Origin: a virus
Length of the DNA stretch: 47,037 nt
IMG/VR virus record: IMGVR_UViG_3300008266_000095
Location: 1-47,037 of that record
Reading direction: 5' to 3' (one strand)
Both the position numbers and the translations under genes were made by a program. Under the pieces are notes generated by a model. That model was not told where the DNA came from. It made no database searches and was given only the letters and a program-made list of their open reading frames with translations. Below are positions 3,032 to 40,751 of this stretch, in pieces. Within the stretch, counting starts at the first letter, position 1. The number at the start of each line of letters is the position of its first letter.

Positions 3032-4159
3032 ATGATAACGCTTTCCGTCTCTCCCGACTTCATCAACGTTAGCGGCGATACCTACACGGTACGCCACCAC
3101 ATCCGCAAAGCGGGCGGCCTCTGGATGGCCGCACCGGGCGGAGCAAAGGGCGGGCATTGGCGCGTCCCGAACAACCCGACAAACCTAGCGGCCATGGAAG
3201 CCCTCGCCACGGGCTCGCCAGTGCCGGAAGCGCCCCAAGCCCCGGAAGCGCCCGCCGTACGTCAGGCGGCCACGCCAGCGCCCGCCGTGGACCTCTCCGC
3301 CTATGCGCTCAAGCGTGACTTGGCGGCCACGCAATCCGACCTCTCCACCCTGACGCACAAGCTGGGCGCTCGCCTGACGGCCTTGGAGGAGATGCGCCCG
3401 ACCGTGCTGCACATCGCGCCGCGTGAGGAGGGGCTAGCGCCCATCGTGATTGATAGCGCGCACGTCATGCTCCCGCACCTCATCCAATCCCTAGCGGCGG
3501 GGCTTCACGTCTGGATTGCTGGCCCGTCCGGGAGCGGCAAGACGCACGGGGCGGAGCAAGCGGCCAAGGCGCTCGCCCTCACGTTCCGCCTGCAAGGCGC
3601 TATGACCATGGCGCACGAACTCACGGGCTTTGTGGACGCGGGCGGCAAGTATCACGAAACGCCCTTTGTCACATCGTTCCGCACCGGCGGCCTCATCCTT
3701 CTGGATGAACTCGACGCGGGCAGCAATGAGGCGTTGCTGGCCCTCAATGCGGCCTTGGCGAATGGCGTCATGTGCTTGCCCAGCGGCGAGATTATCCGGG
3801 CGCACCCTGACTTTAAGTGCATCGGGAGCGCTAACACTTTCGGCGCTGGCGCAACGGCGGAGTATGTCGGGCGCACCCGGATTGACGCGGCCTTCCTGCA
3901 ACGCTTTGGGGCTCGCCTGACATGGGGTTACGATGAAGCCCTAGAGCGGGCTATCAGCGGTAACGAGGGCTTTGCCCGCCGCGTCCAGAAAGCCCGCGCG
4001 AACGCCAAGGCGCACGGGATCAAAGTGCTGATTACGCCCCGCGCCAGTCAGGCGGGCGCTCGCCTCATCGCGGCGGGCTATACGTCCGATGAAGCGGCGA
4101 GCATGACTTACCTTGCCGACCTGACACCCGAACAACGCCGCACCGTGGAGGCCGTCTAA
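3032..4159 (+). CDS. MoxR/CobS-type AAA+ ATPase
   Basis: This encodes 375 aa. An N-terminal part (1-60, with TYTVRHHIRKAGGLWMA) and a Pro/Ala linker with a short coiled coil (about 88-120) precede the AAA+ core. Walker A is AGPSGSGKT at 163-171, Walker B is LILLDELD at 221-228, a sensor-1-like GSAN lies at about 266, and RIDAAFLQRF at about 283-292 carries the likely arginine finger. This matches the MoxR/CobS/CbbQ group, which work as hexameric remodelling ATPases paired with VWA-domain partners. The next gene, 1 base downstream, indeed has a MIDAS motif. The pair probably acts as one chelatase-like or remodelling machine; its target is unknown. Confidence 0.88.
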   Translation: MITLSVSPDFINVSGDTYTVRHHIRKAGGLWMAAPGGAKGGHWRVPNNPTNLAAMEALATGSPVPEAPQAPEAPAVRQAATPAPAVDLSAYALKRDLAATQSDLSTLTHKLGARLTALEEMRPTVLHIAPREEGLAPIVIDSAHVMLPHLIQSLAAGLHVWIAGPSGSGKTHGAEQAAKALALTFRLQGAMTMAHELTGFVDAGGKYHETPFVTSFRTGGLILLDELDAGSNEALLALNAALANGVMCLPSGEIIRAHPDFKCIGSANTFGAGATAEYVGRTRIDAAFLQRFGARLTWGYDEALERAISGNEGFARRVQKARANAKAHGIKVLITPRASQAGARLIAAGYTSDEAASMTYLADLTPEQRRTVEAV

Positions 4160-25135: not shown

Positions 25136-26914
25136 CTAGGCGTGCCACCTTCCGTCCCATATCGTAATCATCTGGCGCTTGCCGTTCTCGTGGATCACGC
25201 AGAAGCTGATCGACCAGTTGCCCGGCGAGCCCATGGCGTATTCGAGTTCGAGCACCATGACGCCTACCTGCCACGCGCCGTTGAGGATGCCCGCGCCGTG
25301 GCCGTGGCCGATGACGACCTTGCGGCCAAGCAGGGACAGGTTCTTCAGCGAGCCGCGAGCGCCACCGGCACCGAGGTCGCCGTGGAAGCCAAGCTCGATC
25401 CCGCCGCCAGCGTTCTTGCAGACGACGTACGACTGACCGGGCTCCAGCCAGAGGGTGTTCGGGATGGGGCCGTTGAAGCTTTCGACCGCGCACTTCATGG
25501 CGTTGAAGGACACGCCCTCGCGGAGCGCGCGGAGGTAGGCCAGATGGACCGTCCCGGCGAACTCGGCATTCTCCAAGTCCCAGCGCCAGTCAACCTCGCG
25601 CAGATAGCGTTCGAAGTGCCGGTCATGGTTCGAGTTGACCACGACGTTCTCCACGCCGGGGCGGGAGGCCATCCACAGGAAGCGGTTCGTGCTCTCGTAC
25701 TCCGCCTTGATCGACTTCTGCTGCACGACCTTCAGGGCGTACATCTTGTAGGGGTCGCGGCGGTTGTGGTGGCCGAACTCAAAGTCCGCGAGGTCATGGA
25801 AGATTTGGCGGCGCGGCTTGATCTGGTCGAGGATGCCTCCAGCGCCCCAGCACAGGTCGCGGATTTGCTGGGTCAGGTGGATTTCGTGGATGTCGCCCCA
25901 GACGATGGTGTTCGAGCCCTTCGCCTTCGTCACGCCCTCGGCGGAGAAGATGAGCGTGCCCTCGGGCCGTACGTCGTAGATGCGGCCAGCGCCGTCCGTG
26001 TTGAGTTGTCGTACGAACCAGCGGCCCTCGTGATCGACTTCAACGAGGAGCGCGCCGTAGATGTGATCGAACTCGGCCTTCTGTCCGGCCTTCCGCTGGA
26101 TGTAGTTGCGCTTGGTGATCGCGCCTGTCGTGTACTGGAGCTTCGCGGCGTCTCCCGGCGCGGTCGCGATGCTGACCATGTGCTGCCGTACGTGCGGGAA
26201 GATGGACGAGTTGCGGTAGTTGTAGTTCTGGAGCGCGGACAGAGGCTCAGACGCGGTCGGCCAGTTGTTGAAGTGACCGTTCCAGATGAGGCCCTTGCCA
26301 AGCTGGATCATCTCGTCAGCCGCGTACGGCTCGATGCGCTCGTCGTACCACTCGGCGTCGTCGTCGCTCGCCCGGCCTGTGCCGCGCTTGCTGGAGCCGT
26401 CCTTCGACTTGTTGTAGGTGAAGGTCGAGATGAGCATTTCGGCGCTGTCGTACTCCGCCATGACTTGCAGAGCGGCCCACGTCGGCTCGTGGAGCAGCGT
26501 GTTGTTCTGGGCCGCCATGGTGATGTAGCGCGCCACCTTTCCCTTCGCCGGGAAGGGTCGTACGATGGGCTGGCGCGCGTCGTCGGAGCCGACGAGCTTC
26601 GGCTTGATGCCGCGCTGCGAGGCGGTCTTGATGCGGTGCTGGAATGTCGAGGGTGAGATGCCGAGGGCTTCAGCCGCTGCGGCTTGTGTTCCGTACACGG
26701 ACAGTGCGTCAACGACGGCCCGGCAGTCTTCGTCGGACAGGGCCGCTGCGCCACCACGGACGATGTCGCGGACCTTGATGCCCGCCGCCTTCGCCTCAAC
26801 GAGCCGCGAGCGGAACGTGCTGCGGGACATGTTGAGTTCTGCCGCCGCTTCCTCCGCAGAGGTGGAGCGGTTGTAGGCAGATGCGATTTTCTGGAGTTCT
26901 TTCTTCGTGGTCAA
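25136..26914 (-). CDS. HTH-metallophosphoesterase protein, T5 A1-like layout
   Basis: This encodes about 592 aa from TTG 26914 (GGAGA upstream); GTG 26950 would add 12 residues. Two helix-turn-helix-like repeats come first, EEAAAELNMSRSTFRSRLV at about 19-37 and AAAAEALGISPSTFQHRIK at about 67-85. The C-terminal half has metallophosphoesterase motifs in order: VWGDIHEIH (about 335-343), VVNSNHDRHFERYL (about 420-433; SNHD in place of GNHD) and VIGHGHGAG (about 530-538). T5 A1 is a metallophosphoesterase-like protein needed for host DNA breakdown and second-step transfer, and similar proteins occur in other phages. DNA nuclease activity is thus plausible but not shown. Confidence 0.75.
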   Translation of the reverse strand: MTTKKELQKIASAYNRSTSAEEAAAELNMSRSTFRSRLVEAKAAGIKVRDIVRGGAAALSDEDCRAVVDALSVYGTQAAAAEALGISPSTFQHRIKTASQRGIKPKLVGSDDARQPIVRPFPAKGKVARYITMAAQNNTLLHEPTWAALQVMAEYDSAEMLISTFTYNKSKDGSSKRGTGRASDDDAEWYDERIEPYAADEMIQLGKGLIWNGHFNNWPTASEPLSALQNYNYRNSSIFPHVRQHMVSIATAPGDAAKLQYTTGAITKRNYIQRKAGQKAEFDHIYGALLVEVDHEGRWFVRQLNTDGAGRIYDVRPEGTLIFSAEGVTKAKGSNTIVWGDIHEIHLTQQIRDLCWGAGGILDQIKPRRQIFHDLADFEFGHHNRRDPYKMYALKVVQQKSIKAEYESTNRFLWMASRPGVENVVVNSNHDRHFERYLREVDWRWDLENAEFAGTVHLAYLRALREGVSFNAMKCAVESFNGPIPNTLWLEPGQSYVVCKNAGGGIELGFHGDLGAGGARGSLKNLSLLGRKVVIGHGHGAGILNGAWQVGVMVLELEYAMGSPGNWSISFCVIHENGKRQMITIWDGRWHA

Positions 26915-26964
26915 GCGTGTCTCCGTGGGACATGGCCGATGGTCTGCCACGGATACAGCAAGGC

Positions 26965-32386: not shown

Positions 32387-32416
32387 ATTATACGGCAGAG
32401 AACGACATTACGTGAA
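32387..32416 (-). promoter_or_regulatory. Candidate sigma70-type promoter before the holin candidate
   Basis: On the minus strand TTCACG (32416-32411) is followed after 18 bases by a perfect TATAAT (32392-32387). The -10 overlaps the stop codon of the tail fibre gene and the downstream gap is AT-rich. It would give the 86-aa membrane protein and the ejection genes their own transcript. Confidence 0.45.
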
Positions 32417-33926
32417 CGCCGTCCACTTGGGAGGCTGTCGGAGAGTTCGTCGTCAGGAAGAAGCCACAGTGCGTGACGCTGGCTACCCACGTCGCCTTGG
32501 CTTCCGTCCACGCGAGGTTGAAGTTCTCGCCGTCTTTCGAGGTCCACAGTTCGAGGTTCGAGGCTGTCAGGCGCAGTTCCATCCACACAGGCCCCATGTC
32601 GGTGAAGCTGCGGTTTTCAGCGTCACCGGGCGATGCCGAGTATGCGCCTGCTGCGCTGTAGCGCATGGGGCGGAGAGCGGGCGTACGGCCCACGTTTAGG
32701 ATACCTGCGCCGATGTTGTAGTAGCGGCCCGTACCGTTGTCGTTAACGAACAGCCCCCACGAGCGGAAGATGGCTTGGTTAAGGTTCGGCTGGAACAGCG
32801 CACGCATGGTGAACGGGTTCCCCGCGCCGTTGGGCACAGCCCGGCGACCATAGATGATCCGGTCAAGCGAGCCCGCCACGCTGGTCACGCTGGCGTACAT
32901 GCCGCGCGTCGTGTCAACGATGGTGCCGTTACCGGCGGTGCTTTGCAGGGCCGTCAGGCCCGTTCCTGCGAGCGTGGGAGGTGACGGAGCCACAGGCCAG
33001 TAGGGTGCAGCCCCGGCCATCGGGAAGGCCACCTGTCCCTCAAGGAACACGGCATAGTAGCCGCCGACGCTGGCGCTGACGGCTTGACCGTTGGACAGGC
33101 CGACCGTGGCGTAAGAGCAGGCGAGCAGGACGGTCGTGCCCGGCGCGTTGATGGTCCATGCGTCGTCCGCGTTGAAGCTCGCGCCGGATACGCGCATGGC
33201 GGTAGTGCCAATGCCCGAGGCGTTGGTCACGGAAATCATGTAGGTCGTGCCCACAGCGAGGTTCACCGGCGATGCGAACGCAAATCGTACGGCGAGCAAG
33301 TCAGTGCCGGGCACGGCCACGGTTGCCGACGTAGCCAGTACGGTCGTGATCTGGCCCGTGGCGGGGTTGCAGGAGGAAATCTGCATGTAGTGGTTCTGGC
33401 CTGCGCCAGCGGGGTCGATGTGCGCCCACGCCGCGTCGATCACGAGCGGAGCGGTCGGCGTGAAGGGCAGGCCCTTGGTGGCCTGTGCGGTCGCTGAAGC
33501 CTGCGGCACGTCGCCAGTCGCGCCCTTGAAGAACGATGCGCCTCCGCCGCCTCCGCCGCCGGTGATCGGAACGTCAACTACCGCCGTGATCCGGCCTTTC
33601 TGGTCAACGGTGATCTGCGGCACGTTGGTCGCATCGCCGTACGTTCCGGGCGTGACTGCTGTGTCAGCGAGGCCGATGGGTACGATGGTGCCGCCGAGCG
33701 GGCCGCCGCCGGTGATGGGCGTGGTGGTCGTGATCTGCTTGGCCGCGAGGGCGTTGACGAGCGCTATGGCGCTGTCGATGTCCTCGGCAGTCGTCACGTT
33801 CTTGCTGCGCTGGCCGAGCCAGTTTCGCAGGAAAGCGTCGGTCGCCGTCCCGTCCGGGTTGACGATCCGCATGTTCTTGTCGATGGGATCAACGCCGAAG
33901 CGGGTCAGTATGGACCGGCGGGCCAT
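32388..33926 (-). CDS. Tail fibre or tail tip protein
   Basis: This encodes 512 aa. The N terminus (MARRSILTRFGVDPIDKNMR; FLRNWLGQRS) resembles virion-attachment parts of phage fibres. A motif TPGTYGDATNVPQITVDQKG at about 91-110, common in trimeric fibres, is followed by seven Gly in a row, probably a hinge. The rest is beta-rich with a final lectin-like domain (WMELRLTASNLELWTSKDGE). It likely binds the host surface. The start overlaps the stop of the next upstream gene (33926). Confidence 0.7.
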   Translation of the reverse strand: MARRSILTRFGVDPIDKNMRIVNPDGTATDAFLRNWLGQRSKNVTTAEDIDSAIALVNALAAKQITTTTPITGGGPLGGTIVPIGLADTAVTPGTYGDATNVPQITVDQKGRITAVVDVPITGGGGGGGASFFKGATGDVPQASATAQATKGLPFTPTAPLVIDAAWAHIDPAGAGQNHYMQISSCNPATGQITTVLATSATVAVPGTDLLAVRFAFASPVNLAVGTTYMISVTNASGIGTTAMRVSGASFNADDAWTINAPGTTVLLACSYATVGLSNGQAVSASVGGYYAVFLEGQVAFPMAGAAPYWPVAPSPPTLAGTGLTALQSTAGNGTIVDTTRGMYASVTSVAGSLDRIIYGRRAVPNGAGNPFTMRALFQPNLNQAIFRSWGLFVNDNGTGRYYNIGAGILNVGRTPALRPMRYSAAGAYSASPGDAENRSFTDMGPVWMELRLTASNLELWTSKDGENFNLAWTEAKATWVASVTHCGFFLTTNSPTASQVDGVHVMSFSAV

Positions 33927-34747
33927 TAGGTAATCTCCACGCTCGCCCTGTCGATGCGTCCAACGCCGCCGTAGTCGGTGATGTCGATGACGCGACCGGG
34001 AGATTGGAACGAGCCGAGGCTCATCCAGTCGATCTGCTGCGTGTTCTCGCCGGGAACGAGCACGATGATGCTGTCTGCTGGTGCGTCGTACGTCACGCCT
34101 TGGTCATCCGAGAACGTCAGTTCGATGGTCGGAGCCGGTGCGCTGGGGTCGCCCACGCTGGCGTAAAGCTGCAAGCTGTCGTGCGTGGCCCAGCCGAAGC
34201 CGGACTGCGGGATGATGGCCGTGACCGTACGGCGGATGTCCTTGAAGCCCTCGTCCCGGAAGGTTTCCGGGTCGATCAGCCACACAGTCGGGTTCTGCCG
34301 GTCAGCCGCGACGATGCGGTCGTCAGAGCCCCAATTGAGGCCGACGTATGCGTTCCAGCCAGTGTCGAAGCCTTCCGTCTTCCACTCCGCCCATTGCTTC
34401 GTGGTGAGGTCATAGACGAAGGTGCCTTCCTCGCCCAGATGCAGGACGTAGAAGCGGTGACCGTCCATGGTGAAGCCCCACGCGCGCAGGCGGAGGTCTT
34501 CCGGTGCGCCGACGCCGTAGACACCAAGGGCCAAGAACTGCGACGTGGACGTGTTGGCTTCGCCCGAGACAGGGCTTTCCTCGACAACCGCGAGCATCAG
34601 TGCTTGAGAGGTGATCGCGTATTCGGCCAAGGGTGTACCGTCGATGATGCCCAGCGCAACAAACTGCGATGTCAGGGTTTCCGTAGGGAACCCCGACACT
34701 ACAGCAAGTGCGACGGCTTGGGAAGTGTAGCCGAGTTCGGCAGACAT
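33926..34747 (-). CDS. C-terminal half of a P22 gp10-like hub protein, with TSQ repeats
   Basis: This encodes 273 aa. Residues 8-80 hold four repeats of about 20 aa starting TSQ (TSQAVALAV, TSQFVALGI, TSQALMLAV, TSQFLALGV). From about 83 the sequence LRLRAWGFTMDGHRFYVLHL then GTFVYDLTTKQWAEWKT matches the second half of gp10-like tail-hub (packaged DNA stabilisation) proteins, up to the strand-rich end. The first half is encoded at 36940-38178, and the 726-aa LamG gene lies between. The two halves probably still form one hub structure around the tail tube. The repeats have no counterpart I know in P22 gp10. Confidence 0.62.
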   Translation of the reverse strand: MSAELGYTSQAVALAVVSGFPTETLTSQFVALGIIDGTPLAEYAITSQALMLAVVEESPVSGEANTSTSQFLALGVYGVGAPEDLRLRAWGFTMDGHRFYVLHLGEEGTFVYDLTTKQWAEWKTEGFDTGWNAYVGLNWGSDDRIVAADRQNPTVWLIDPETFRDEGFKDIRRTVTAIIPQSGFGWATHDSLQLYASVGDPSAPAPTIELTFSDDQGVTYDAPADSIIVLVPGENTQQIDWMSLGSFQSPGRVIDITDYGGVGRIDRASVEIT

Positions 34748-34759
34748 AGCGCGCCTCCC

Positions 34760-36940
34760 TTACGACGTACGGGTGATCCGCAGCCGTCCGTTCAGGACCG
34801 ACGTGGGCGTGAGTGCCGCGCCGGTGTCGGGGTCTTCCTCGATCATGTCCGCACGATAGGTCGGGGTCGGGGTCAGAGCGTTGTCGGCTCCGTCTGCCGC
34901 GTTACCGTCCACCACGAACGATTTCTGCTGCGTGGCGTTGTCGGTATCCAGCCATTCGCGACCGATCAGGAACAGGCCGCGAAGGCCGGTGGCGGTCGGC
35001 GGTAGAGGATCGAACGAGAACTCCTGCGGTGCCGGGATGTCTGCGCCGCCGACGAGCGTTGCGCCGCTGAGCCACGAGCCGTCCGTGGTCGTTTCGGTCG
35101 AGACAATCGAGTTGCCTGCGACACCTGCGACAATGGCGGTTGCGGTGAACTGCGTGAGCGGGTTCGGGCCGAGCGCGGCGGTGGCTGACAGGTTGACCGT
35201 CGTGCCGGTGCCGTAGACTACGCCTTCGCCGGGGCCTTGGTTGATCGCGTTGACGAGGTTGTCGAGGCATTCGGCCTCATCAGCGCCGATCAGCACGTCG
35301 TTCGCGCCGACGAGGGCCGCAACCCATTCGTACGTCGTGCCGCCAAGCGTGACTGTTTCGGCGGCGACCGGAAGGCCGAGCAGTTGGAACGTGTTGCGCG
35401 CCTTCAGGTAGTAAGCCTCAAGGAAGCGGTCGTCGTACGGCGGCTGCGAGCCCAGCATCCGGTAGTTCTTGCCGGTGCCAGCGTCCGAGTGTTCCTGCCG
35501 CGCCGTGATGCCGCGAACAGTGATCGTTCGTACGGCAGCGCTTTCGTTCACGACGGACTGGTCGTAGCCTGCGAGAATTTGCACGGACGCGAAGTCCGGG
35601 TCGCCGCCGACCGTGCGCGGGAACTCCGCCGCCGGGGGCGTGAAGTTCGCGGTGTAGCGAGCCACGCCGGGCGTCGTACGAATTTCGTCTTGGAAGCCGT
35701 GGAACGACGTGTTGGCGAGCAGGGTCGTGCCGGTGCCGCTGATTTCGCCGCCGATGCAGAGCTTGGCCCCGGTGGTGGCAGCGAAGTAGGTGTTGGCGTC
35801 TGCTTCGTCGGTTCCGATCTGGATACCGTCGATGAACAGGCGCGTGACGCCGCCGTCACGGCACACAGCGATGTGATACCAGTGCGCCGGGTCGAAGTCG
35901 AAGATGACGCTGATGACCGGGTCGAGGGTGCCCAGCGTGCCATCCGTGGTGATTTCCCAGCGAAGGCGACCATCGTTGATGTCCGGGCCGTACTTGACGA
36001 GCCGGTACGAGCGCGCCGCGCCGGTGGCGTTCCACTTGCCGAAGAACGTCCACAGGTTCGTGGTCGTGGGCGTAGACGAACTCGGGCGGAACCAGCCTTC
36101 AAGCGTGAAGTCAGCGGAGCCGAGGTCATCGGCAGCGACCGCGCCAGCGTCGAGTGCGCCGTTCGTGCCTGTCGAGATGAACAGGTTTCCTGCGCCGTAA
36201 AGCTGGAACGGGCGCGGGGTGAACTCGGACGGCGGGATGTCGGCGGTCGGCCACAGGGTCGCCACGCCGGAGATGTTCGGCCAGTCGTCGTTGTATGTGC
36301 CGGTGAGGCTGTAGGGGACCATGAAGTCAACCCACCAGTTCACGGGGCCAGCGGACGCGCTGGAGGTGTTGCCTTGGCAGATTTGGGTCGCGGTGCCTGC
36401 GAATGTGAGGCCCGTGCCGGTGATGCCGGACGTGCCGCCGATCCTATCGACGCCATCGACGCGAATTTCGACTTCAGCGGTGCCGGAGCCGAAAATGATT
36501 TGGCCTTGGATTTTGTGTGCCGTGTTGGCGAAAATGCACGGCACGACGGTCTGCACTACGAGGGTGCCCGCCGAGTTGTATAGCGCGAGGTTTCCGTCCG
36601 TGGTCAGCGCCATGCGGAAGATGTCGTTGTTTCCGCCGTCGCGGAAGATGACGGGCCACGTACGGTCGTTCGTGACGGGCAAGGTGTCGAACTGGACGCG
36701 CGTAGCGAAGCCGATGGAAGCGAACGAGCCGCCCAGCACGCGCCGGTAGAACGCATCGCGCGGGCCGGTGCCGGGGCCGTCGCCAAGGCGCAGCCAGTAT
36801 TTCGTGGGGTCGAACGAAGGCACAATCGGGGTCACACCCTGATAGCCGACCGTCTGCCCGAGCGCGGCGTACAGCCCGTTGAGCATGAGGTCACGGTCGC
36901 CGCCGTAAATGTCGTAGTTGTCAGCCCAAAGCAAGCTCAT
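34760..36940 (-). CDS. LamG/concanavalin-like domain virion protein
   Basis: This encodes 726 aa. There are two jelly-roll-like regions. The first lies at about 80-210 (RVQFDTLPVTNDRTWPVIFR; EIRVDGVDRIGG). The second, at about 255-445, has ADFTLEGWFRPSS, HWYHIAVCRDGGVTRLFIDG and FHGFQDEIR, the standard LamG strand pattern. A beta domain near 540-640 (TVTLGGTTYEWVAALVG; VLIGADEAECLDNLVNAIN) also occurs in the neighbouring 412-aa protein. The protein probably binds glycans on the host surface or decorates the tail. It sits between the two halves of a gp10-like hub protein and looks like an insertion that brought its own receptor-binding module. Confidence 0.72.
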   Translation of the reverse strand: MSLLWADNYDIYGGDRDLMLNGLYAALGQTVGYQGVTPIVPSFDPTKYWLRLGDGPGTGPRDAFYRRVLGGSFASIGFATRVQFDTLPVTNDRTWPVIFRDGGNNDIFRMALTTDGNLALYNSAGTLVVQTVVPCIFANTAHKIQGQIIFGSGTAEVEIRVDGVDRIGGTSGITGTGLTFAGTATQICQGNTSSASAGPVNWWVDFMVPYSLTGTYNDDWPNISGVATLWPTADIPPSEFTPRPFQLYGAGNLFISTGTNGALDAGAVAADDLGSADFTLEGWFRPSSSTPTTTNLWTFFGKWNATGAARSYRLVKYGPDINDGRLRWEITTDGTLGTLDPVISVIFDFDPAHWYHIAVCRDGGVTRLFIDGIQIGTDEADANTYFAATTGAKLCIGGEISGTGTTLLANTSFHGFQDEIRTTPGVARYTANFTPPAAEFPRTVGGDPDFASVQILAGYDQSVVNESAAVRTITVRGITARQEHSDAGTGKNYRMLGSQPPYDDRFLEAYYLKARNTFQLLGLPVAAETVTLGGTTYEWVAALVGANDVLIGADEAECLDNLVNAINQGPGEGVVYGTGTTVNLSATAALGPNPLTQFTATAIVAGVAGNSIVSTETTTDGSWLSGATLVGGADIPAPQEFSFDPLPPTATGLRGLFLIGREWLDTDNATQQKSFVVDGNAADGADNALTPTPTYRADMIEEDPDTGAALTPTSVLNGRLRITRTS

Positions 36941-38178
36941 TAGCCGGTCCTTTCCGCTTTCCGTGCGCGCCGAATGCGTTCCTCGATACCATGGTTCGAG
37001 ATGCGCTGTTGACCGCTTCCACCTACTGCATACACGATGCCGTCGTGTCCCACAACAATAACTTCAGGGTCCAGACGTACGGCGGTGCCTTCCAGCGCGC
37101 CTTTGCTGAAGCTCCGCCCTTGGAACTGGCTGAAGGGCACGTCGGCCTCGCCAGACAGGTAGTAGGCGTCCGTGGACTGCTTGTTGAAGCACCAGACTTG
37201 GTCCCCGATAGCCATGAGGCTGATGCCCTCGTCGGGCAAGCTTTCGCTCTCGAAAAAGTCGAGCGGGTCGATCAGGAACTCGCCGGGGCGGATGAAGTAG
37301 ATGCGCTGGCTGTTGGACACGAGGCACAGGACGAAGCCGCCGATGACGGCCAGCGACACGATAGCCACGTCGTCGGGGGTCGGAATGCCGCTGAGCGCGT
37401 CGTTGACGCCGCCGAGGAGGGTTGCTGCGGCGAACGAGCCGGTAGCCATGGTTTCGACGGTCGTGTAGGCGTTGCCTGCCGTGCCGCCCACGCGCGCGTA
37501 GAAGGTCAGCGTCTGGTTGCCCAACACCTCTGTAGGGCTCCACTCGGACGCGATGAAGGTGTTCTCCACGGTGCCGCTGGCGTAGGCGATGTTGACCGTC
37601 TCGGGGACGCTGTTGACGGCGTCCGCAAGGTTCTGGAGGGTTTCCTCGTTGTTCGCGCCTATCAGCACGTCGCCGGGCACAGCCAGCACGGTCTTGAAGG
37701 CGTAGCCGATGCCGTTGAGGGTCACAGTCTCGCCGTTGGAAATAGCGCCAGTGACCGTCAGGACGCCCGTGGCGCGGCTCCCTTCGCCGTCATAGAACTG
37801 GAGCAGCGTGCCGTCTGCGATGAACATGTATTGGTCGGTGCCCGCCATGGAGGGAGCGCCGTCACCTTGGATGGTGCCGCCGATGGCCGTCTTCGTGCCG
37901 TCCTTGTCGAGCCGGAACAGGGCGTTGCCAGAGACGACGAACAGCGTGCCGTTGAACGTGCCCTCCTGCGCGAACTCGTTCCTGATCGGGCCGGTGCCGA
38001 ATGCGTCGAGGAAGGTCGTGCCGGGGCGTGAGAGGAGGGAGACGCCGTCAACCGCGTTCGCAGGGTTTTCCTCGAAAAAGCGGTTAATCATCTTGATTTC
38101 GGGCATACGCCCATAGCGCCGCGAGTATGCGCCGACGCCAAGCGGGATAGGTTGCGGCTGGGGAGTGTCTTCAGCCAT
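36940..38178 (-). CDS. N-terminal half of a P22 gp10-like hub protein with an inserted domain
   Basis: This encodes 412 aa. GAYSRRYGRMPEIKMINRFF and LSRPGTTFLDAFG at the N terminus, and VIGGFVLCLVSNSQRIYFIR, DPLDFFESESLPDEG and QRISNHGIEERIRRARKAE near the end, follow gp10-like hub proteins. Those normally continue with a segment like the one found at 34747-33926. A domain at about 130-255 (ETVTLNGIGYAFKTVLAVPG; VLIGANNEETLQNLADAVN; GGTAGNAYTTVETMATG) is inserted in the beta propeller-like part and also occurs in the LamG protein. It probably seals the packaged head and connects portal and tail. Confidence 0.7.
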   Translation of the reverse strand: MAEDTPQPQPIPLGVGAYSRRYGRMPEIKMINRFFEENPANAVDGVSLLSRPGTTFLDAFGTGPIRNEFAQEGTFNGTLFVVSGNALFRLDKDGTKTAIGGTIQGDGAPSMAGTDQYMFIADGTLLQFYDGEGSRATGVLTVTGAISNGETVTLNGIGYAFKTVLAVPGDVLIGANNEETLQNLADAVNSVPETVNIAYASGTVENTFIASEWSPTEVLGNQTLTFYARVGGTAGNAYTTVETMATGSFAAATLLGGVNDALSGIPTPDDVAIVSLAVIGGFVLCLVSNSQRIYFIRPGEFLIDPLDFFESESLPDEGISLMAIGDQVWCFNKQSTDAYYLSGEADVPFSQFQGRSFSKGALEGTAVRLDPEVIVVGHDGIVYAVGGSGQQRISNHGIEERIRRARKAERTG

Positions 38179-38939
38179 TAGCCGTTAGGCTCCCAGCCGG
38201 GGCCGCCCCAAGACTGGAACGAGTTGAAGTTGATGGTGTCGGGGAAGTTGGCCGTGGGCACTTCCTGAGCATAGCGCGCCTTGAACTGCTTCATGCCGTT
38301 CTGGGCGATGCCAGCCGTGATGGCGTTCGGCTCTTTGCCGTAGAGCGGGCACAGTCGTACGGCGAGCAGCGCCACCCAGAAGTCATCGAAGCTGTCCGGG
38401 AACGGGACTTGGTCGGTTTCCGCAAGCGGGAAGTCGAGGGCGATCCAGTTCGCGAGGTCGGCGCGATACAGCCACAGGAGCGGGCCTTCCGGGTTCGTGT
38501 TAATCACGATGGACTGCGCGCCTTCGATCAGGCGACCGTTGGCGTTGAGCGTGAGAGGGTAGGCGGTGAAGTCGGAGGCCACGTTGACCAGCGCCATCCG
38601 CGCGCCATCGGGCGGGACGTTCTGGAGGTAGGCCGTGAAGGGGCCGGTGGCCGCGCTCAGGGACACGAGCAGGCGGCTGTTCGGTGGCGGGCCTTTGTAG
38701 ACGCTCGCCGGGGTTGTCGGGTCGGAGGGGTAGAGCGGGTAGCGGTTGTTCACGCTTCCGGCGTACGGCAGGTTCCAGTCAAGCAGAAGCTCGCCCTCGT
38801 CGGTGCCGAGCATCGACTTGATGAGCCGGTTCAAATAGTCAAGGGCCTCCGCAGCTTGGGCTGCGGAGGGTGTCTTGCCAATCGCGATCAGGTTGTTCTC
38901 GCGAAAGCAGCGGTTGACGATTTCTACCGCCGTGGTCAT
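38178..38939 (-). CDS. P22 gp4-like head-to-tail adaptor
   Basis: This encodes 253 aa. Residues 1-60 (TTAVEIVNRCFRENNLIAIG; AAQAAEALDYLNRLIKSMLG) are the typical helical start of gp4-like tail accessory factors. The middle is beta-rich and the C-terminal part has DFWVALLAVRLCPLYGKEPN, then AGIAQNGMKQFKARY. It should bind the portal and start tail assembly. Its size (P22 gp4 is 166 aa) is larger because of the central beta part. It lies between the coat region and the gp10-like gene, the expected order. Confidence 0.78.
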   Translation of the reverse strand: MTTAVEIVNRCFRENNLIAIGKTPSAAQAAEALDYLNRLIKSMLGTDEGELLLDWNLPYAGSVNNRYPLYPSDPTTPASVYKGPPPNSRLLVSLSAATGPFTAYLQNVPPDGARMALVNVASDFTAYPLTLNANGRLIEGAQSIVINTNPEGPLLWLYRADLANWIALDFPLAETDQVPFPDSFDDFWVALLAVRLCPLYGKEPNAITAGIAQNGMKQFKARYAQEVPTANFPDTINFNSFQSWGGPGWEPNG

Positions 38940-38942
38940 CGG

Positions 38943-39356
38943 TTAGCCTTTGGCGAGTTCTGCGAGGGCTTCGATCAGTTCCTCGTCGGTCGTGGCCGGG
39001 TCAACTTCGAAGTTGGCCGCTTCCAGCGTGACGATGGCCGCAGCACGGTCGAAGGCCGGAGCCTCGGGCGCAGGGGCGGGGACTGCCGAGATGGCAGCTT
39101 CAAGCGGGGTTTCCGCCGGAGGCTTCTCGGCTTTCTTTCCGCCCTTACCCTGCCGTACGACGGCGGGGGTGGTGGTCGGAGTGATCGGCGGTTTCGGCAC
39201 AGCGGGCTTGGCCTTGCCGACCTTGGACGGATGGTCAACGAAGCCTTCGTCGGCGGCCTGTGCGTCTTCGTCAGCCGTGAGCACAACGCGCGTTGCGTCG
39301 TCCTTGCCGTAGCGCATGGCCGGGTAGGGGTGGTCGGCTGGATTGTAGTGGGTCAT
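38943..39356 (-). CDS. Hypothetical virion-region protein with LEM/HeH-like end
   Basis: This encodes 137 aa from ATG 39356, preferred over ATG 39398 because AGAGGA precedes it. The N terminus is MTHYNPADHPYPAMRYGKDD, then a Lys/Pro/Ala-rich linker. The last 35 residues (VTLEAANFEVDPATTDEELI, then EALAEL) look like a small helix-extended-helix module. It sits between coat and adaptor genes and may be a minor head or head-completion protein. The capsid terminator separates it from the coat gene. Confidence 0.6.
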   Translation of the reverse strand: MTHYNPADHPYPAMRYGKDDATRVVLTADEDAQAADEGFVDHPSKVGKAKPAVPKPPITPTTTPAVVRQGKGGKKAEKPPAETPLEAAISAVPAPAPEAPAFDRAAAIVTLEAANFEVDPATTDEELIEALAELAKG

Positions 39357-39396
39357 GTAGTCCTCTCGGGTTTCAGGAGCAGTTCGGAAGCCTGAC

Positions 39397-39428
39397 ACAA
39401 AAGAGGCCCGGTTGCAAGCCGGGCCTCT
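39397..39428 (-). terminator. Rho-independent terminator after the coat gene
   Basis: On the minus strand AGAGGCCCGG pairs with CCGGGCCTCT (10 bp, arms 39419-39428 and 39402-39411), 7-base loop, followed by TTTTGTG. It lies 22 bases after the coat stop and would raise the relative yield of coat mRNA over downstream tail genes. Confidence 0.75.
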
Positions 39429-39449
39429 CTGTTTCTTTCGTCAGGGCGC

Positions 39450-40751
39450 TTACGTCAGGGAGACGCCGCTGAAGCGCGTGCCGAGGAGTTCGTCCACGAC
39501 GTTGCCGCCGTAGATGGTGTCCCAGCGGTGGATGTGTGCGCCGGTCTGGATGTCCGAGCCGCGCCAGTAGCGGATCGAGATACCCGTCTCGGGGTCGGAA
39601 GCGAAGCTCGACACGCCGGTCTGCGGCGTCACGAGTTGGGCGCTGACCATCTGGATGGCCGACTTGTGCCATGCAGCGCGCTGGCTGAAGGACGAAGACG
39701 GGTTGCCCGCGAAGGACAGGACCGCATCGTTGGCCGGGATGGCCGAGGCCGTCGCGAAGGCCGTGTTGACGCGCTGGGTCGCCAGCGAGCCGCCGGTGTT
39801 CGGAACGATGATCGCCGGGGAGATGGTGAGCGTGACTGCGCCAGCGCCGTCAGCCTGAGCATCGTTGACGATGGTGAACTGCATCAGTTCCGCCGCGCCG
39901 TTCGCATCGGTGACGATGGCTTGCGTGCGGGGGTTGATGCGGAACACGTTCGGGATCGTGAACACTTCGCCGCGCTTGAAGGTCGCGGAAGCACCGGCGC
40001 TTTCGAGGATCAGGGACTGCGTCATGCTGTCCTTGACCGTCTCGTAGTTGACGTTCTGGTTCGCGCCGTTGACTTGCGCTGCGCCGGTCTGCGCGCGAGT
40101 GCCGGTCGTGAGGACGCCCGGAGCCTGCGTGCGGTAGTAGTCGATGTCCGAAAGCATCGGGATACGCGCTTTCTTCATCGCGTTCGAGGCTTCCTGCGAC
40201 ATGAACTTGTCGATCAACGAGGCTTGGACGCCAGCGCTGTCGCGGATCGTCATAAAGCCGACGCGGTCGGTCGTGGGGACCGCGAGGTTTTCGAGGCGTT
40301 CCCAGACCGGGATTTCCTGCTGCGGCGAACCGAGGCGGAAGTCGGAGGCAGTCGCGCCGGGGGCTTGCACCCACGACGGGAACTTCTGGATGAAGCCATG
40401 CAGGTAGCTGTCGATGCCCTGCGCGAGCGCAGACGCGGCAGACTTCATGGTCTGGGCGCGAATGAGTTCGTTGTAGGACTGGACCATTTGCAGGTCCGTG
40501 ATCGAGATGTGGACGTTCGAATACTGGTCCACCTTCACGTCGGTCGAGCCGGTGACGATGTCCTGCACGTCGAGCGCCGGGCCGGAGGTCATCACGAAGC
40601 GCGGAGGACGCTTGACGCTGATCTTCAGGCCGTTCTTGTCGGTGACTTGGTTGGTGAACTTCGTGTCCACCAGCTTGCCCATGACAAGGTTGTTCTTGAC
40701 CAGCAAGAGCATGACGTTGGCATAGACTTGGTCGTTCAGAAACTGGTTCAT
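39450..40751 (-). CDS. Major capsid (coat) protein, P22 gp5-like
   Basis: This encodes 433 aa, almost the length of P22 coat (430). The start MNQFLNDQVYANVMLLLVKN, then LKISVKRPPRFV and SITDLQMVQSYNELIRAQTM, is typical of P22-type HK97-fold coats. The segment AQADGAGAVTLTISPAII fits the coat's inserted Ig-like part. It forms the icosahedral shell with the scaffold encoded directly upstream. The gene contains no CGTACG, although nearly all others do. A terminator follows. Confidence 0.85.
   Translation of the reverse strand: MNQFLNDQVYANVMLLLVKNNLVMGKLVDTKFTNQVTDKNGLKISVKRPPRFVMTSGPALDVQDIVTGSTDVKVDQYSNVHISITDLQMVQSYNELIRAQTMKSAASALAQGIDSYLHGFIQKFPSWVQAPGATASDFRLGSPQQEIPVWERLENLAVPTTDRVGFMTIRDSAGVQASLIDKFMSQEASNAMKKARIPMLSDIDYYRTQAPGVLTTGTRAQTGAAQVNGANQNVNYETVKDSMTQSLILESAGASATFKRGEVFTIPNVFRINPRTQAIVTDANGAAELMQFTIVNDAQADGAGAVTLTISPAIIVPNTGGSLATQRVNTAFATASAIPANDAVLSFAGNPSSSFSQRAAWHKSAIQMVSAQLVTPQTGVSSFASDPETGISIRYWRGSDIQTGAHIHRWDTIYGGNVVDELLGTRFSGVSLT

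Follow-up and report, generated by a model that had tools for sequence, protein, structure and literature searches.

In the IMG/VR virus record IMGVR_UViG_3300008266_000095, analyzed over its whole length of 47,037 bases (hereafter the window), the tail hub of the P22 gp10 kind is encoded by two genes with a third gene lying between them. The upstream piece (hubN, 412 amino acids, aa) and the downstream piece (hubC, 273 aa) cover complementary parts of the hub, and the gene in the break encodes a protein of 726 aa. The window hub is thereby a split form of the PHROG 578 (tubeB) family rather than an ordinary member, as two genes replace one polypeptide. We consider it probable that this gene-split hub of the P22 gp10 / T7 gp12 kind arose by one ancestral insertion of a cassette, that its pieces re-associate, and that the inserted protein is an adhesin-like appendage, probably docked on a series of strand repeats (SQ repeats) at the start of hubC.

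Two genes for one hub

Searched against PHROG 578 (head closure Hc3, P22 gp10-like; 486 positions), the 412-aa protein matched positions 4-284 (E=3.9e-32), and the 273-aa protein, from its residue 87 onward, positions 289-450 (E=3.8e-18). Chance is excluded, because the two pieces tile the profile and because the same arrangement was seen in 73 loci. Searched in six frames over its whole length, the record gave no copy of the PHROG 578 family beyond these two genes, and in eight related whole records the family occurred only at two adjacent, complementary places, one record reporting the N-terminal part as two matches in one frame. The first-pass annotation, made from the letters of the window, had read the two proteins as parts of a gp10-like hub with a gene between them and had placed the hub segment after residue 83 of the 273-aa protein, and both readings hold: residues 1-83 are four SQ repeat units of type YTSQAVALAVVS. 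The three same-direction open reading frames (ORFs) that it described are all there on the minus strand, with open frames, and their junctions do overlap or nearly touch. The 412- and 726-aa genes overlap by 1 nucleotide (nt; TAATG), as do the 273-aa gene and the next gene downstream (TAATG), while the 12-nt gap between the 726- and 273-aa genes contains an AGGGAGG ribosome-binding site.

A profile of 412-aa relatives matched P22 gp10 at residues 180-288 (E=4e-10), and also Sf6 gp8; the break therefore lies near P22 gp10 residue 288. E-values for Pam1 in the Protein Data Bank (PDB) are inflated in such relative-profile searches, as Pam1 itself is in those alignments; independent of this bias are the PHROG 578 matches, the P22 and Sf6 profile matches, and Foldseek. 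AlphaFold2 modeled the 273-aa protein confidently from residue 83 onward, with a predicted local distance difference test score (pLDDT) of about 80-96 over the hub part, and placed there a complete four-strand blade (residues 89-122), a three-strand blade (133-158) and then platform strands. A fold search with the model of this protein by itself led to podovirus hubs including that of P22: the six best PDB matches in Foldseek were the hubs of Pan3 (E=2.8e-9), Pam1 (2.3e-7), P22 (three entries, 2.6e-7) and Sf6 (7e-6), over about 195 columns. The hub fold is accordingly read from model and Foldseek for the C-terminal part and from the profile match to solved hubs for the 412-aa part, in which we infer N-terminal platform strands and about five propeller blades. 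Single-sequence scans with the 273-aa protein found no relatives in virus or genome contigs, and alignments were required. Sialidase matches of the 273-aa profile were set aside, since they rest on a strand-turn stretch of ~30 residues.

The first relatives served to build profiles, with which the ORFs of the window and of 134 loci were scanned. Among the 108 loci that could be classified, 73 had three genes (hubN, inserted gene, hubC), eight had two (hubN and a longer hubC gene), and the unsplit gene, for which a search of the relatives had been suggested, was present in 27. Dereplication left 44 three-gene, seven two-gene and 27 unsplit loci. In a tree of 77 of them (51 split, 26 unsplit), all split loci fell on one side of one branch (bootstrap 100; Shimodaira-Hasegawa-like approximate likelihood ratio test, SH-aLRT, 99), and all 200 bootstrap trees checked agreed; trees from the N-terminal part alone and from the C-terminal part alone gave the same separation of split and unsplit loci. 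Within the split clade, the two-gene loci form a group of their own (98/68). The tree is unrooted, and fission is the simpler direction because the hubs of P22, Sf6, Pam1, Pan3, T7 and SU10 are single chains. As judged from these sequences, there was one ancient split event, and the two-piece hub is the fixed state of a whole lineage (73 + 8 split loci, one clade), not the single case that had been supposed. The counter-case that had been named, a close relative in which the 412-aa protein stands without its partner, was not encountered: the partner was found in every relative with room for it on the contig. Two split loci lie on genome contigs, labeled Sphingomonas segetis (YJ09, locus L027) and a Chthoniobacterales metagenome-assembled genome.

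The inserted gene and the SQ repeats

The first-pass annotation had taken a LamG gene to be what split the hub. A LamG domain is present in the 726-aa protein (Laminin_G_3 at residues 267-402, E=1.6e-12, 48.3 bits against a curated cut-off of 27.6), but in most split loci the middle gene encodes only ~350 aa, with two conserved parts (insN and insC) and the second LamG missing; LamG and a further domain, D1, stand between insN and insC only in the subclade that includes the window. The fold of insN is concanavalin-A-like, and Laminin_G_3 comes near its cut-off there in loci L020 and L085. The short inserted proteins of relatives match PHROG 2448 (about 335 aa) over the full length (E=1.2e-22 in L079, E=5.7e-29 in L020), a family whose kin elsewhere lie in the distal tail region of other phages. 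The 726-aa copy gave no direct match to PHROG 2448 at E<=1 and is tied to the short forms only via insN and insC. LamG is thus not what split the hub; from these profile comparisons, the gene that did so encodes a concanavalin-A-like tail protein of ~350 aa, kin to PHROG 2448, to which LamG was added within the subclade.

The AlphaFold2 model of the 726-aa protein (mean pLDDT 84) shows tandem LamG/galectin-type folds resembling laminin LG pairs and galectins. In close pairs, insN is 36% identical against about 65% for the hub. This variability and the predicted fold are consistent with an exposed, possibly glycan-binding appendage. D1 (about 120 aa) is common to the 412- and 726-aa proteins, with about 40% identity across relatives by tblastn, and a profile scan of ORFs found it absent from hubN of loci L019-L022, L027, L072 and L080. 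A 492-aa ORF upstream of the adaptor in another locus (L013, 1450-2928) carries several D1 copies, and one locus (L122, 2006-4192) has a tandem pair of inserted-type genes between hubN and hubC.

Arrays of at least three SQ units, scored with a motif trained on the same three-gene set, were found in 40 of the 44 dereplicated three-gene loci and in none of the seven two-gene or 27 unsplit loci, nor in any of 4365 other ORFs or 880 shuffled N-termini. The two-gene loci have neither the inserted gene nor SQ repeats; an unrelated region of ~400 aa, fused before hubC in L070, L072, L078, L080, L094, L101 and L106, takes their place in front of it. Profile searches with this region gave weak propeller-like Pfam matches below cut-off and no family name. 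That the repeats come and go with the inserted gene suggests that the inserted protein docks on them. The idea of an inserted module accordingly stands in part: a gene does sit in the break, while the unit that came in appears, from its sequence, to have been larger than one gene and to take in the SQ stretch with which the 273-aa protein opens.

The same two components were found together outside the split clade, in two phages that had no part in training the SQ motif. In Mesorhizobium phage Cp1R7A-A1, the gene after a homologue of the inserted gene encodes 103 aa of SQ-like repeats. In Tetraselmis viridis virus S20, such a homologue sits between a DUF2460 gene and an SQ-bearing baseplate hub gene (L135, 7300-8799), whose product has a LamG-like stretch and four SQ repeats ahead of its baseplate hub attachment domain (PF09931, E=1.1e-37). 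The S20 record names a green alga as host, though the tail genes are of bacteriophage type. One further homologue scan was dominated by split-hub loci, its single pattern being specific to them, and says little on the cassette elsewhere. We tentatively suggest, as a possibility somewhat short of even, that the SQ repeats are a portable docking strip, binding one adhesin copy per repeat, which is plugged together with an adhesin gene into unrelated tail hubs; the podovirus insertion would have broken the hub gene, creating in the propeller a lasting port into which the two-gene branch later put its quite different ~400-aa domain.

Assembly of the hub and alternative readings

In the reading that we favor, one ancestral insertion would have placed a two-part cassette in the hub gene where one propeller blade joins the next. 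The cassette would have consisted of a concanavalin-A-like tail-protein gene and the SQ strand repeats, from which the downstream piece of the hub would have gained its new N-terminus. Both pieces would be made as separate chains and then re-associate, and the inserted protein, also made separately, would most likely be an exposed adhesin-like appendage, probably docking on the SQ repeats. A three-chain hub, as put forward in the first-pass annotation, is not supported as such, the hub fold being supplied by two chains.

Co-assembly is suggested by related hubs. In T7 gp12 and SU10 gp17, a strand from the N-terminal side closes the last propeller blade, the chain passes in and out of the propeller via the platform, and strands of the platform come from both termini, three being N-terminal in T7 (PMC6702177, PMC9509320). 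If the topology is as in T7 and SU10, both chains must contribute strands to the last blade and to the platform, and the 412- and 273-aa proteins would therefore have to co-assemble. Pairwise distances over the relatives point the same way, with r=0.88 between hubN and hubC against 0.53-0.72 with the domains of the inserted protein, although shared descent alone produces some correlation of this kind.

Several observations weigh against this reading. The SQ region appears in the AlphaFold2 model as short strands of low confidence, the SQ motif was trained on the loci in which it was then counted, and the remaining four of the 44 three-gene loci have 0, 0, 2 and 2 detectable units. The link between inserted gene and SQ repeats is not universal, as 11 other loci outside the clade with a homologue of the inserted gene (three of the first five and all eight later ones) have no SQ array. 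Finally, no virion, protein or isolate for any split locus was found in the collections searched.

A different account of the origin is that the hub gene was first broken by a homing endonuclease and received the tail genes later. Homing endonucleases split Aeh1 nrdA and T4 gene 60 (PMC2988022), and in one close relative, IMGVR_UViG_3300044957_000285, an HNH endonuclease gene (L005, 3648-4160, minus strand; PHROG 3322, E=2.5e-30) separates hubN from the inserted gene. This gene was noticed in that relative and not in the window, and it may be a later arrival; we regard the account as unlikely. An endonuclease may have opened the site, which one case does not show. Such an origin and a tail-gene cassette do not exclude each other, as the former concerns how the break arose and not its function.

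Less probable still is that the 273-aa protein stands outside the hub, the 412-aa protein alone being a shortened hub and the C-terminal module now serving to anchor the inserted protein. The two proteins are indeed separate chains, the SQ extension shows that hubC gained a new role, and in S20 a hub of another type carries the SQ module. Yet the C-terminal part is complete, with the hub fold, in every split locus with enough contig, and its distances track those of hubN as given above. Furthermore, its predicted last blade is three-stranded and would need a strand of hubN to close (model; PMC6702177), and hubC is retained in the two-gene loci despite the loss of the inserted gene.

Rejoining of broken genes at the RNA or protein level is known for some phages, and the pieces might become one chain by an intron, a trans-splicing intein or ribosomal bypassing. 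This we hold to be very improbable. An Rfam search of 33000-39500 gave no match, and the Pfam matches of the three proteins include no intein family. The middle gene and the hubC gene each have their own start and ribosome-binding site, and the junctions are at translational-coupling distances in most loci; the SQ repeats with which hubC starts are unexplained by any intein or intron boundary. Neither an RNA element nor a terminator was retained as a candidate for the junctions. As the window is a single metagenome-derived virus record, errors in assembly or sequencing might be suspected, or a gene disrupted only recently and in this genome alone. Both are already refuted by independent contigs, with 73 loci in the same order and eight intact two-piece loci in one clade, an even G+C of 0.61-0.67 over the region and open frames.

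Gene surroundings and comparison with known hubs

The window is a virus record of podovirus type, with recognizable terminase, portal, scaffold and major head protein genes upstream of the hub, a weak adaptor match adjoining it, and a DNA-ejection protein downstream (E=3.8e-19). Transcription on the minus strand runs from the 253-aa gene through the 412-, 726- and 273-aa genes to the 512-aa gene. The latter gave no significant family match in a PHROG profile search; its N-terminal 114 aa are conserved among relatives. Elsewhere in the window, a 604-aa protein near the structural genes (25136-26950, minus strand) has N-terminal helix-turn-helix repeats (HTH_8, E=3e-7), and an AAA ATPase of PHROG 249, a family with a porphyrin-biosynthesis label, is found at 3032-4159 on the plus strand (E=5e-51).

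Table 1. Genes and domains of the split hub locus, in window coordinates (HMM, hidden Markov model).
Feature	Position	Strand	Basis
253-aa gene in head-tail adaptor position, upstream	38178..38939	-	weak PHROG 637 adaptor match, E=0.0098; precedes hubN in relatives
hubN, 412 aa, N-terminal part of P22 gp10-like hub	36940..38178	-	PHROG 578 4-284, E=3.9e-32
D1 passenger domain within hubN, about residues 136-260	37399..37773	-	tblastn cross-match to inserted protein
Inserted gene, 726 aa: insN (concanavalin-A-like), LamG, D1, insC (C-terminal beta-sandwich)	34760..36940	-	Laminin_G_3; AlphaFold2
insN, residues 1-226, core part conserved in all three-gene loci	36263..36940	-	HMM; tblastn to short forms, L020 E=1e-9, L021 1e-8
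LamG domain, residues 267-402, subclade only	35735..36142	-	Laminin_G_3
D1 in inserted protein, about residues 513-634	35039..35404	-	tblastn, HMM
insC, residues 640-725, conserved C-terminal domain	34766..35023	-	HMM; tblastn to short forms, E=2e-6 to 1.5e-7
hubC, 273 aa, four SQ repeats then hub C-terminal part	33926..34747	-	PHROG 578 289-450, E=3.8e-18; Foldseek best matches podovirus hubs
Four SQ strand repeats, starting at residues 7, 25, 45 and 67 of the 273-aa protein	34514..34729	-	motif scan
Hub C-terminal part, residues 80-266: four-strand blade, three-strand blade, platform strands	33950..34510	-	AlphaFold2/DSSP; Foldseek
512-aa downstream gene, probably needle or fibre	32388..33926	-	position only

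Among podovirus proteins, the gp10/gp12 hub is described as one of the most conserved, and each solved hub that was found is a single chain. A clade with a permanently two-chain hub indicates that the propeller tolerates a break between two of its blades and presumably can still retain pressurized DNA and open when triggered, which makes the clade a natural split-protein test of propeller closure. The clade also suggests a mobile cassette of adhesin plus anchor, able to fit tail hubs of unrelated kinds. Annotation pipelines may label the two hub pieces as separate or unknown proteins. A published split of a P22 gp10-like hub was not found in the open-access literature searched, subscription papers being outside the search. 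The family itself is known; what is new is a P22 gp10-like hub as two chains, of single ancient origin, with a two-part adhesin cassette in the break.

The closest counterparts are P22 gp10, Sf6 gp8 and the needle heads of Pam1 and Pan3 (PHROG 578, tubeB), which the window hub resembles in profile, in the predicted fold of its C-terminal part and in its position after the adaptor. They are single chains, whereas the window has two, with a gene between them and SQ repeats and D1 in addition. The T7 gp12 and SU10 gp17 nozzles are likewise propeller-plus-platform hubs and carry extra domains between blades (PMC6702177, PMC9509320); these are inserted within one continuous chain, while the insert in the window interrupts the gene and is a separate protein. 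Among tail proteins of PHROG 2448, the relatives' short inserted proteins match over the full length, and the window copy adds LamG and D1.

Genes split by insertion are also known from Aeh1 NrdA, T4 topoisomerase gene 60 and phage 25 gp43A/B, and reassembly of the split pieces into a working enzyme was shown for NrdA and gp43 (PMC2988022). These split phage genes encode enzymes and were mainly split by endonuclease genes, whereas the window has a split structural ring protein with a tail gene in the break. Another large rearrangement of a podovirus tail ring protein, likewise traced to one ancient event, is that of the dual tubeA tails of Phi-GT1 (PMC10386132); there the adaptor (tubeA) was doubled, while in the window the hub (tubeB) was split.

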